Assembly (NCBI RefSeq): GCF_022458985.1
Contig: NC_061785.1
Location: 5,384,204-5,448,203, forward strand
Reading direction: 5' to 3'
DNA from: Mugil cephalus
Lineage: Eukaryota > Chordata > Actinopteri > Mugiliformes > Mugilidae
DNA: 64,000 nt
Below, in pieces: positions 23,801-41,900 of the stretch. Numbering within the stretch: position 1 is the first letter of the stretch; the number at the start of each line of letters is the position of its first letter. The notes under the pieces are model-generated. The model ran no database searches. It was given only the letters and a program-made list of their open reading frames with translations, and was not told where the DNA came from. The position numbers and the translations under genes are program-made.

Positions 23801-26800
23801 TTGACTCCAGAGTGAAGGCTGCCCACGCGCTGCATGCCTACACTCCTGGCTCCTGCGATTGGCTTTGGCGAACACTCGTATCTTGTAACAATCGTATCGC
23901 CATGACACATTAAAAAATGGAGAGAGTGAGGAGCGCGTTGCATATTTTACTATAAATAACACATTGTGAAAAGATGCAGTTAAGCCTTGAAGTTGAAGTA
24001 AAAGCAGAGAAGATGCATTTAAAGTTAAATTGCATCGAATGTGTCCTATGAGGACTCTGACAGTGTTGTATCTTTATATTGCAGATCATTATTTTTGATT
24101 CATTAGTATTTAAGGAGCTTGTTAGCATTGTAGTTATCTCAATGTTATCTTCACCTTTATGATAAATGTCAGGGATCAGTCATGAAATGTTATCAGGTTT
24201 GGCCTACGAGCATGAAGAAATAGAAAATAAAAGGAATTAAAAAAGTGCAAAACCACTGACGGGAGACGTAAAAAACACTGAACCATCTTCCGATAATCCA
24301 ATGTTCTGCTGGGAAACTTTTGGACTTCGGACCTGGTATTCATTCATGTGGATGTTGCAGCCTGACGCAGACACACACAAAAAGAAAAAACACTTTAGAA
24401 ACGACCTGGCCTCTAAATCCCTACTGTGTGGGATGATCCACAGAGCCCCAGGGGCCTCCACTGTGGTTCCATGGTGTAATGGTTAGCACTCTGGACTCTG
24501 AATCCAGCGATCTGAGTTCAAATCTCGGTGGGACCTTAATTAAGCTGCACAATATTAAAAAAGGAGGTCATAACGTTATGGCTGATTGGTGTACCTAATA
24601 CAGCGTATTTATTTTCTGCTGAACAGACGCCATAAATATAATCTAATATATAATCTTATCTACACTCAAATCTGTATTGATGCAGTCAAAATAAAAATGA
24701 TTTCATTTGATCTTCCAGAAATTTCATGATTGTGTAACTGATGGTTTCAGCCAGACAACAAGATGATCAAGCAGTAGCTGCTGTGTATGTGGTGGTGTAA
24801 AAAAACCCCTGAATGATTGCAACCAAGTGATGAGAACACCTAGTCAATTTAAATAATCCGTCTGTGACAAGATATAATCCTCATTCAGGAACAGTGTGCA
24901 TCTTTAGCTCATTGTTACGTCATGATGTGCATTTCCTCTTTGGTTGCCACCAAACAAATCCTCTGCAGACGCCAACTGCAACGTGGCTGAATAAAAGGCT
25001 GTTGACTGTATAACTGTAACGTGATGTTTGGAAATCAGTCACACCTTGTTTGGGTTTTCGAGGATAGCACTGCTTTTGTCAGAGTTTTGCATAGTTCCAA
25101 ATATATGAGTGTGAGACGCACGTGCAAATATTTGCAAATTCACACTGTATTCAACATTTAGGTTTAACACACGCTTCCCACCAGCAGTGGTGAGGATAAG
25201 TCATTACTAGCCTTCCTGTGAACAAAACATATGTTAAAATTACAACAAAAAAATGAGAATAATAACAATAATAAATATCTAAAACCTTTATATAACATAT
25301 TTATCCTTCCGAGACCCAGCGTCATCATATGGGGACATTACGTTTTAGGTTTGCTGCAGCTTATTCTGCTTCATTTAGAGCTGTTGTCCTCATTAGGAGA
25401 CACTTTTGTCTGCCATGTACTGGTAGCAAAGGGTCAATACACTTGTTTATTTATGCTAATTAACTTTTCTAGTTTTATATGACATGAAAATTTAACAAAT
25501 TAAAAGAGTACACGTTTGAGGACATTGGGATTTCATTATGTTTTTGCATAAAAATAAACTGTTTTATATTTCGGTACACATTGGTGACTTAAATAGTATT
25601 ATACAGTGAAATAATCCCACATAATTTATTTCAAACTTCCAGTTCCAATATGATTATTGCTTATTTTTTATACTTCTTAGGTCCTACTAATCCCAAATAC
25701 CTAAAGATCTTAATCTTATTAAAGAAATTAGGATGCATTCCAATCAAATGCTTGGGTCTCTGGAGGATAATAAATCTCTAAAAAAGTATCTATTTGTACT
25801 ATTTATCACTTGTCATGTGGATTGTTTCCTGACAACGTGTTTCATTTTACAGGGTTCTGCTGTTAAAAGTAAAAAAAATTTCCATGAAAATATTTGTTTT
25901 TTATGTAACCGGTGTAATGTCTTCGTGCTCGCTGCTAAGATTCGACGTCGGAGGCCGACGCCTGCCACGCTCTTCAGACTGACAGACCCACCGTCACCAG
26001 AGGAAGACAGCGGCACACATCAGGTACGTCCTGACAGTTAATCATTCACAAGGCATTTGCATTAAATTTCAACGGTTGCAGAGGAGAACAAGAAACTACC
26101 GCAGTACAATACGATGCTCTCTTGTTTTGAGTTGTGTCTGAGAATTTGTTCTGATAAGCCCTTTATGCACATAACTGCAACATTCACAGCCTTGTTCTCA
26201 GCGGTAGATCTAGACAAGTTTACATTGTGTGGCATGAGGATTTAACGGGGAGGCGTGGGAGGATGGTATTTGGCAGTTGCCACGTAAAAATACTGTAGGT
26301 AAATAGATTCCTCTCATTTCTTCTCACTTTCTCTCCCTGGTTTCCTTTCAATTTGTCTCCATACACTGATCAGGCATAACATTATGACCACCTTCCTAAT
26401 ATTGTGTAGGTCTCCCTTGTGCCTTGTGTCTGGTCCAGGTCATTAAATCCACTACTGAATCTCTACTCTGTGGGATGATCCATAGAGCCCCCCTCCCATT
26501 AACCCATAGGCCACAAAAGCCTCCACCGTGGTTCCATGGTGTAATGGTTAGCACTCTGGACTCTGAATCCAGCGATCCGAGTTCAAATCTCGGTGGGACC
26601 TTAATTAAGCTAAATTTTGGGGCTACTGTGCTAGGCTAGGGTTAGCGACTCGATCCCCAGAATGTTCCACGTGCCAAAGTCCCCTTGAGCAAGACACTGA
26701 ACCCAGTAAAGTGCTTTGAGTACCAATAGATACAAAGATCATTTACTAACAAATGTAGGAATACCAGAGCAGAAGTTTCCCAGCAGAACATTGAACTGTC

Positions 26801-38950: not shown

Positions 38951-41900
38951 TGTAATCACTTAATTAAACTTTCAGTTTAACATATCAATACTCATTAGAA
39001 AATAATATTTCAAGCACATTTGATAAACACACTTGTAGACTTTTATACCATTATTATTGCTGTCACCAGAGCATTTTTTTGCAAATTGCAGTGGTTATTT
39101 GTCAGTAATTTTTAACATTTTTAACAAGTGACATTTTAACAACAAGACTCAAGTATTCATTCATTTGTGAATTAAAAAACGAAGGAAAAGTAAATGAATG
39201 GTTTGTTGCACTCTTAAAAGTTTTGATAAAAGAAGAAAACAGTCACACAATGCTCTGTGCAAATGTGAAGCGTTCCGACATCACCTTATCAGTGTTATCT
39301 GGCTTATTGATCATAAACTAGTTGTTGCAAGTTTTTCTCTTTAAATTGGAAAACATTTCTCGTGAAATGACTCGATGTGGGTCGATAACTACCGCATGTC
39401 GATAAACATACGTGCAGGCACATGTGGGGTTTTCGGAACGTACGACTGATAAACCGCTGTCAGAACATGCATCAGGTTTTCTGCCCAGTGGCAGGATTCT
39501 GACCCGCTCTAGTCTGTGTCATGCGCCTCATTGCTTCAGAGAGATGTGTAATGTCAGCACAGGCTTTTTTTTTTTTTCTCTCTCTCTCTCTGCCGTCCCT
39601 GCTGATGTGGCAGTTTGAAGGCTGTGATTATCTGTTTCCCGGGTTACAGATGGATGTAGGGGAGGGCTTCATTCTTGTTTGCCCCATTCATGTAATCAAT
39701 GGAACGAAAACCCAGCAAAACATTCTTGTTTGCACAGTTACACGAAGCTGAAGTATTTACCAAAGCACTGATACGATGCAGCCTTTTTCTTTAACACTTT
39801 AAAACATCTTGAATGGCTGAAATGAATGCGATTCTCAGTTGTCTTGATTAAATCTTAACAGTTATCAGTGGATAAGTATGATAAACGTAACACCCCCCTC
39901 CCTCTCTGTGCAGGTTTGTGGGGCAGGGCCCATGGCAGCTCCTTTGCACACCGCGGTGAACTGCGTCAGGCCAAGAGGATCGTAGTGAAGCTCGGCAGTG
40001 CCGTGGTCACACGTGGCGATGAGTGCGGCTTGGCTCTGGGGAGGCTCGCCTCGATTGTGGAGCAGGTGAGAGGAGGAAAATCCGCAGGAAAGACAAGCGC
40101 CAACACCAGCCGTTTCCTTATTTATAAACTTTTTTTCTTCCTCCGGTTTTATTTTTTTCCCTGTGTATTTAAATGAATTTCCCCTCCATCTTCTGCTTCT
40201 GTCCAGCTGGGAGATAAAGTGGGGCTCTCCAGCCTTCCCGGGATTTGTGATAACAACAGATGAATGGACGTTTGCTCTCACTGAACAAATACATGAGCAC
40301 TTGAATGTAGTTTCTCTGGCTTTGAGCACCGCAGGCTTAAATCTGTTCTCTTCAAACCTTCACTAATAGTACAAATAAAATGTCAGTTGCCACATGGGAA
40401 AAGTAAGAACGCGTTTTGGGTCGCACTGAAAAATGACAGCGTGCTCAGCTACGGTTCATTTGTGTTAACTGGTTAATGTTGTCGTCCAGGTGGCCATGCT
40501 GCAGAATCAAGGCAGGGAGATGATGATTGTTACCAGTGGAGCCGTGGCGTTCGGCAAGCAGAGACTGAGACATGAGATCCTGCTGTCCCAAAGTGTCCGA
40601 CAGGCCCTGCACTCTGGACACAACCAGCTCAAAGACATGGTGAGGAATCCGGCATCGTCTTAATTATGGCTGCACTCCTCTCTGCGTTTTACGTCTGTTA
40701 ATTAGAAATCTAAATGTAACTGAGCTATCGTTAACACACATGGGCTTTCCGTACAGTTCAATCAGGCATAACATTATGACCCCCTTCCTTATGGGTTAGG
40801 AAGAGGGGTCATTCTCTGTGGTCCATCCCACAGATACAGTTCGGGACCTAGTGCCGCCCCAAAAATTCAGCTTAATTAAGGTCCCACCGAGATTTGAACT
40901 CGGATCGCTGGTTTCAGAGTCCAGAGTGCTAACCATTACACCATGGAACCACAGGGGATGCCTTCGGGTCCTTTTGGTTAAGCGGAGGGGGCTGTATGGA
41001 TCATCTCACAGAGTAGGAATTTATGAATTTAGTAGTGAATTTAGAGGTCATGTGCTGTTCTTTTTGTTTTTGTTAGCTGTTCCTAAAGCATTTTTATGTG
41101 TGTGTGTGTGTCATTGAGTGTCATCGCTGTTAGGTGGGGGTGGTGCTACATGTCTAAGTAATATTCACACGAATGAGTGTCAGGTCCAAAGGTTTCACAG
41201 CAGAACATTGAATTGTCACAAGATGGTTTGAATGTTATTCACTTCTCCTGTCAGTGGTTTTAATGTTATGGCTGATCAGTGTATGTTATTTGGTCAGAGT
41301 ATTGTTGTCAACTAGGACATATTATCTACCTTATTATAAATCTGACTCCCATACTACTACCGATAACCTGCACTAGGATGGTATGATTTGATCCAAGCGT
41401 GTCTCCTTAAAAGCTCAAGAGATGATAAATATAACCACATGTTTATGGTATTTGTGTCTCAGTCTTTGCCGGTGCTGGAAGCCCGAGCCTGCGCTGCAGC
41501 CGGACAGAGCGGCCTGATGGCCCTGTATGAGGCCATGTTCACCCAATACAGCACTTGCACTGCACAGGTACTCGTACACTTCACAGCAAAATAATCACTT
41601 GGAAATAAATACTTCAGAGGTCCGTCCGCTTCCTCTCCGTCACTCACATCTCTTCCCCAATGCCCTGCCTCCCCTCTGCGCCCGCAGGTTTTGGTGACGA
41701 ATCTGGACTTCCACGACGACCAGAAGAGGCAGAACCTGAACAGCACGCTGCAGGAGCTGCTGCGCATGAACATCGTGCCCATCATCAACACCAACGACGC
41801 CGTGGTGCCCCCTCCGGAGCCCAACAGCGACCTGCAGGGGGTAAATGTGGGTACAGACAGCATGGGGGCGACGCTCGTGGTGGTGATGGTGGCGGCGGTG

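Follow-up and report, generated by a model that had tools for sequence, protein, structure and literature searches.

A tRNA-Gln gene inside Tc1-like MITEs of Mugil cephalus: probable single capture and local spread

What places an intact tRNA gene inside a transposable element, and does the element then carry the gene along a chromosome? The question is raised by a stretch of 64,000 nucleotides of the Mugil cephalus genome, referred to here as the window (G000:C16:5384204-5448203; the assembly comprises 634.8 Mb in 24 contigs), in which three genes for tRNA-Gln(CTG) lie inside Tc1-like miniature inverted-repeat transposable elements (MITEs). Using tRNA prediction, profile searches and alignments with related loci, we find the tRNA gene inside the MITE at a common junction, with unrelated adjoining flanks, with tandem units and empty paralogues, and with far less divergence in the tRNA than in the MITE sequence next to it. 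These observations suggest that a single capture was followed by local spread of the gene as cargo, and that the gene has remained intact in a decaying carrier. To this explanation as a whole, with its capture in a MITE, its spread over ~1.4 Mb of C16 and its intact tRNA in a decaying MITE, we assign a probability of about 0.6.

tRNA-Gln genes and the MITEs that hold them

In the window ARAGORN reports three tRNA genes and no more, each a tRNA-Gln(CTG); their Rfam tRNA scores compare with a gathering score of 29. The gene at 24.4 kb (24465..24536, plus strand, 72 nt) scores 63.6 bits; that at 26.5 kb (26530..26601, plus strand, 66.3 bits) is the same in all 72 bases as its counterparts in two further loci described below, L004 and L005; and that at 40.9 kb (40879..40950, minus strand, 60.8 bits) has a T39A change that breaks the 31-39 anticodon-stem pair, as read from the Rfam structure line. 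An nhmmer profile search of the window, with the MITE copy at 13.7 kb as query, gave matches at 13735-14205, 24229-24594, 26361-26856 (in three pieces), 31639-32071, 40862-41284 and 49451-49767 (in two pieces). ARAGORN, Rfam and this search agree in placing the three intact genes inside Tc1-like MITEs, as a first-pass annotation of the sequence had done, and ARAGORN and the profile search likewise uphold its statement that the tRNA is missing from the MITEs at 13.7, 31.6 and 49.4 kb.

The carrier at 24.4 kb (24229..24594, plus strand) has a decayed left end and a right end that reaches GGCTGATTGGTGTA. At 26.5 kb (26361..26856) the right end of the MITE, as placed by sequence, lies at the left and its left end at the right, and the nhmmer pieces alternate in strand (26416-26363 minus, 26437-26562 plus, 26854-26745 minus), the tRNA block being inverted with respect to the MITE ends. 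The third carrier occupies 40758..41284 on the minus strand, with an nhmmer envelope of 41284-40862 and its other border drawn by eye. As for the empty copies, nhmmer and alignment place the tRNA site after about position 335 of the reference MITE (13735..14205, plus strand), and show the copy at 31.6 kb (31639..32071, minus strand) to be continuous over that site and paralogous to the 26.5 kb copy in its left flank and right end; the third consists of MITE fragments without a tRNA (49451..49767, plus strand; nhmmer).

The MITE is about 470 bp long and has inverted terminal repeats: its end motif GGCATAACATTATGACC occurs 11 times in the window at three or fewer mismatches (0.15 expected) and closes the 13.7, 26.5 and 40.9 kb copies on either side in opposite orientation; TA, the target-site duplication, is found by eye on each side of those at 26.5 and 40.9 kb. 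The block GATGATCCAYAGAGCCCC, with five window matches at three or fewer mismatches (0.09 expected), stands upstream of all three tRNAs, exactly in two cases and with one mismatch at 40.9 kb, and two of the MITEs without a tRNA have it too, that at 14.0 kb exactly and that at 31.8 kb with two mismatches. The interior of the copy in L004 translates to TWPPNSLDPKLIKYLWDD, which we take to resemble the DDE region of Tc1. Among the matches listed in the genome search described next, MITE-only matches are dispersed over C6, C9, C12 and C15. Places on C6, C12 and C15 match the 26.5 kb MITE at 100% over the 56 bases of its right end (26370-26425), so this right-end type may have moved fairly recently.

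A genome search with window positions 26370-26850 as query, in which 40 of 1460 candidates were scored, listed 53 matches, by our own count 39 near-full-length tRNA-Gln places, 4 partial tRNAs and 10 MITE pieces; at least two of these pieces belong to the carriers in L004 and at 40.9 kb. The DNA read, namely the window and loci L001-L008, covers 9 of the 39 near-full-length places. MITE sequence adjoins seven of the nine, at six sites that all lie in C16:5.25-6.62 Mb: the window copies at 24.4, 26.5 and 40.9 kb, L004 (C16:5.248 Mb), L005 (C16:6.624 Mb) and two copies in L007 (C16:6.274 Mb). The other two, L006 on C14 and L008 at C16:5.274 Mb, are tRNA-Gln loci without a MITE. Rfam and ARAGORN confirm the tRNAs of L004-L008. 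On C14, three tRNA-Gln genes, the first of them L006, lie within 6 kb (C14:9418518-9424238), each with a partial tRNA match ~110-150 bp on.

A junction common to the seven carriers read

We aligned the border between MITE and tRNA in the seven carriers with three empty MITEs, those at 13.7 and 31.6 kb and a third unit in L007. The junction is shared by all seven carriers: the MITE block runs to ...CCATAGGACCNAAAGGYCYCC plus a few bases and is followed by GGTTCC. The empty MITEs read straight through, with ...CCCACTAACAACAT or a near variant at the same point. The clearest carrier is L004, in the order MITE 8-52, MITE 203-292, tRNA, a piece resembling a short interspersed nuclear element (SINE), and MITE 367-464; it is the only copy in which the MITE clearly resumes (reference position 367), with ~30 bp of MITE interior missing at the tRNA site. 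The unfilled state is seen in two paralogous empty MITEs, the one at 31.6 kb and the third L007 tandem unit. Because one internal MITE position recurs at six sites while the adjoining flanks are unrelated (except in the 26.5/31.6 kb pair and the tandem units at 6.27 Mb), it is likely that tRNA-Gln was captured in a MITE only once.

A single capture had been proposed earlier on the ground of a GGGACC acceptor variant; the common junction and unrelated flanks bear the proposal out, but the acceptor does not. All three window copies do carry GGGACC, but so do L006 and L008 outside any MITE; the acceptor argument therefore falls and the junction evidence is untouched. Three places, two on C7 and one on C8 and all among the 30 outside the DNA read, match the tRNA at 100% in alignments that end at the tRNA borders.

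The flanks had also been described as identical on both sides of the tRNA. This is so for the left block and, at the right, for the 11 bases TTAATTAAGCT, which follow all three window tRNAs directly and exactly, their first T being the discriminator base of the tRNA; further on the right sides diverge. The letters TTAATTAAGC, formerly read as part of the MITE, also trail the non-MITE tRNA-Gln of L008, and a near match, TAAATAAGCT, trails that of L006; they therefore represent the native trailer of tRNA-Gln. The non-MITE loci likewise rule out TTAATTAAGCT as MITE sequence. The 3' trailer itself, TAATTAAGCT, lies at 24537..24546 and 26602..26611 on the plus strand and at 40869..40878 on the minus strand, and is common to L008 and, less exactly, L006.

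Past the trailer, the 24.4 kb copy passes straight to the right end of the MITE, that at 26.5 kb to a SINE-like piece (26613..26745, plus strand; approximate borders, by eye) and the 40.9 kb copy, after a short similar start, to inverted MITE sequence. Compared by blastn, the SINE-like piece has kin in L004, L005 and L007, and five of the seven carriers hold one (26.5 kb, L004, L005 and both L007 units). It is ~100-140 bp long with tRNA-like boxes, length and boxes being judged by eye; in these five carriers a run of four to five T leads into it, with GGG after the run in four. Such a run starts within ~15 bases of the tRNA in six of the seven carriers (by eye; none is nearby at 24.4 kb), and is a likely terminator for RNA polymerase III. 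A short blastn match to the SINE-like piece, with no tRNA, lies at 63221-63249. Among the loci read we saw neither a cassette of tRNA and SINE-like piece away from a MITE nor a sign of the new SINE family that the first-pass annotation had envisaged; no genome-wide search for either was made.

Preservation of the tRNA and spread of its carriers

The tRNAs of the seven carriers vary at 4 of 72 sites (tRNA positions 39, 45, 49 and 62), and all 21 pairs of them show 0-4 differences over 71 sites. The adjacent 45 bases of the left MITE flank have 16-34% mismatched columns plus gaps in the 17 of 21 pairs with at least 31 aligned columns; in the remaining four pairs the alignment covers no more than 8-21 columns. 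Fisher's test of tRNA against left flank gives p values of 2e-6 to 3e-5 in eight chosen pairs of the 21, which are not independent. T39A at 40.9 kb is the only one of the four changes that breaks a pair; that copy aside, ARAGORN and Rfam find an intact cloverleaf in the MITE-borne tRNAs, all with the CTG anticodon, and the Rfam alignment has no broken pair in L004, L005 or either L007 tRNA and one each in the non-MITE genes of L006 and L008. That the tRNAs are so alike beside flanks so decayed argues that selection, gene conversion or both have kept them alike.

An all-against-all BLAST of the loci, testing for flanks shared between sites, finds nothing common in the sequence adjoining the elements save in the 26.5/31.6 kb paralogues and the 6.27 Mb tandem units. 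These unrelated flanks, together with the TA borders at 26.5 and 40.9 kb, therefore favour transposition. At 6.27 Mb (L007 positions 400-3100) the units lie ~800 bp apart and share their flanks, and are therefore attributed to tandem duplication; two have tRNA-Gln and the MITE of the third is empty. Just past these units, at C16:6275730, another tRNA-Gln is found among the listed matches.

The 26.5 kb copy points to a further route. Positions 26164-26423 and 31458-31701, which are 5.3 kb apart, are paralogous over 267 columns comprising flank and MITE right end. Their alignment switches at CTTGTGCC, beyond which an empty MITE continues at 31.6 kb and the inverted tRNA block at 26.5 kb, and to the right of the MITE the two show no homology (score 56; the highest of 30 shuffles scored 61). 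The tRNA block was thus probably put into a MITE that already existed; precise loss of the tRNA at 31.6 kb is less likely because the MITE there reads through. Simple recombination of two oppositely oriented MITEs was considered as the origin of the 26.5 kb copy and rejected, since the right border would then carry the other end.

The spread appears to be local, transposition-like at some sites, by tandem duplication at one and by MITE-to-MITE transfer at another. The earlier claim that the MITE had spread the gene accordingly oversimplifies: the 6.27 Mb copies are tandem duplicates, and the block at 26.5 kb appears to have moved into a MITE already present. All six sites fall within 1.38 Mb of an assembly of 634.8 Mb; random placement would give this with p ~3e-13, although the sites came from a best-match search.

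We hypothesize the following course. A tRNA-Gln(CTG) gene and its 3' trailer, with or beside a SINE-like piece, would have been captured once after about position 335 of the reference MITE at 13.7 kb, perhaps through template switching during gap repair. Short-range transposition, as the presumed main route, would have spread the carrier over ~1.4 Mb of C16; local tandem duplication would have multiplied carriers in the 6.27 Mb cluster; and at least one tRNA block, that at 26.5 kb, would have been transferred by recombination or gap repair, presumably in the direction of an existing empty MITE. With its internal promoter and, mostly, a nearby T run, the tRNA could be expressed and work wherever it landed, and selection or gene conversion may have kept it intact while the MITE carrier decayed. 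More tentative, and in our estimate rather doubtful, is the idea that the MITE serves to deliver a working tRNA gene, which is captured, spread on the chromosome, swapped between MITEs and kept by selection as its carrier decays.

Several points weigh against one capture followed by spread and preservation. Only L004 and the three window sites have both MITE ends in recognisable form (the left end at 24.2 kb being decayed); L005 keeps only the right end and ~48 bp of the left block, and in L007 no more than ~40 bp of that block remains in either tRNA unit. The link to a transposase is through resemblance to a known motif, and a Pfam search with a 25-aa piece of the L004 interior gave no match at E up to 10. 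The trailer belongs to the window group and is mostly absent from L004, L005 and L007, which therefore divides the carriers into two subgroups, and right-hand sides vary: the right-hand 60 bases align poorly, some pairs having few mismatches but many gaps (4/41 mismatches with 20 gaps, 5/49 with 12 gaps) and further pairs having 20-30% mismatches. Away from the elements some loci share other stretches, which in L001 compared with L005 and with L007 reach 291 columns at 63-71% identity; the region therefore has other old repeats or duplications, and local clustering also fits duplication with later flank decay. Nor is the genome search a census, since decayed carriers escape it: as a carrier, the second L007 copy was picked up neither by it nor by BLAST to the reference MITE, and was recognised only through alignment and its tandem neighbour. 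With 30 of the 39 tRNA-Gln places outside the DNA read, there may be carriers elsewhere with decayed flanks.

These points bear on several other histories. If a tRNA-Gln in one MITE had been copied along C16 by segmental or tandem duplication and rearrangement, without transposition, and its flanks had diverged past recognition, one would understand why all seven carriers read lie within 1.38 Mb of C16, why the 6.27 Mb units are plain tandem duplicates, why 26.2-26.4 and 31.5-31.7 kb are paralogous and why a few weak shared stretches occur apart from the elements. We nevertheless think such a history unlikely, given that adjoining flanks are unrelated outside the 26.5/31.6 kb pair and the tandem units, and that TA and both MITE ends bound the 26.5 and 40.9 kb copies. 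Gene conversion concerns the preservation of the tRNA and is compatible with capture: native genes, for example L008 ~135 kb away, might have overwritten the MITE-borne tRNAs again and again, this being what chiefly makes them alike, so that capture could be old and function unneeded. The sharing of TTAATTAAGC between the window copies and L008, despite widely differing neighbouring MITE sequence, agrees with overwriting, as does the inverted tRNA block in the MITE at 26.5 kb, whose paralogue is empty. Private changes that differ between MITE-borne and native copies mean that conversion would have been incomplete, and the common MITE junction stays unexplained without an original capture; we rate overwriting by native genes as possible, with the odds against it.

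A pre-tRNA-Gln with trailer and T run could alternatively have been fused to a SINE-like RNA and reverse-transcribed into the MITE, the cassette being a one-off dimeric SINE. The order of tRNA, trailer where present, T4-T5 run and SINE-like piece is indeed constant in 26.5 kb, L004, L005 and L007, but no target-site duplication is seen round the cassette, the ~30 bp of MITE in L004 are missing and not duplicated, and no MITE-free cassette occurs among the loci read, all of which makes retroposition improbable. Given how common MITEs are in the window and how many tRNA-Gln genes there are, one might imagine MITEs inserted on either side of pre-existing tRNA genes, or a coincidental pairing; the identical internal junction in all seven copies read contradicts this, and outer MITE ends flank the gene where recognisable, leaving chance with a negligible share. 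Independent insertions beside tRNA genes are ruled out by the common junction.

Known systems and neighbouring genes

A tRNA gene captured once and spread locally inside a Tc1-like MITE has partial parallels. Vertebrate Tc1-like MITEs are short, with inverted ends, a TA target and an interior from a transposase gene; the elements described here share the shortness, the inverted ends and the TA target and differ by carrying an intact tRNA gene. In tRNA-derived SINEs, which are propagated through reverse transcription, the tRNA part decays. As in these SINEs, a tRNA promoter lies within the repeat, but here the tRNA has stayed intact and is carried by a DNA transposon. How tRNA genes move is, to our knowledge, poorly known.

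The turnover of tRNA genes is fast, according to an excerpt of one report (PMC2888827). In excerpts of two wheat papers, tRNA-Lys genes sit in Gypsy long terminal repeat (LTR) retrotransposons and unclassified repeats (PMC3989483, PMC4471722), and the abundance of wheat tRNAs is generally ascribed to capture driven by transposable elements and to co-proliferation (PMC4471722). As with wheat tRNA-Lys, a tRNA gene has multiplied as the passenger of a transposable element; the carriers in those excerpts, however, are LTR and unclassified repeats in plants, Mariner and CACTA being named for microRNAs (PMC3989483, PMC4471722), whereas in the mullet the carrier is a MITE of the DNA-transposon type; its junction with the tRNA is defined and common, empty copies exist, and the tRNA is much less diverged than the carrier. 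For wheat, tRNA genes as transposon cargo are thus already in print; in literature searches of a limited collection of papers, none of those listed dealt with a Tc1-like MITE that holds a tRNA gene. Dada transposons of fish and other animals, as an excerpt describes them, insert into tRNA and small nuclear RNA genes with 6-7 bp target duplications (PMC3706591). They resemble the present case in linking a DNA transposon with tRNA genes, fish included, and differ from it in that here an intact tRNA lies within an element with TA borders. A Dada-type arrangement was discarded, the tRNA being uninterrupted in all seven carriers read.

Should the MITE indeed act as a delivery vehicle, it would offer a specific molecular mechanism by which tRNA genes could relocate as fast as comparative genomics shows them to do. 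Because its junction is defined, its paralogues include empty ones and its carriers are decaying, such a captured gene would allow the movement of tRNA genes, and the use of transposon-borne tRNAs, to be studied.

Viral contigs searched once with a tRNA pattern of 48 bases gave no match. The 40.9 kb carrier probably lies within an intron of its host gene, which we take from frame translations to be ALDH18A1/P5CS-like. The empty 31.6 kb MITE is flanked by reading frames at 30747-31223 and 32166-32465 on the minus strand; these presumably resemble parts of an NNMT/PNMT-type methyltransferase, and are perhaps exons of one gene with the empty MITE in between.

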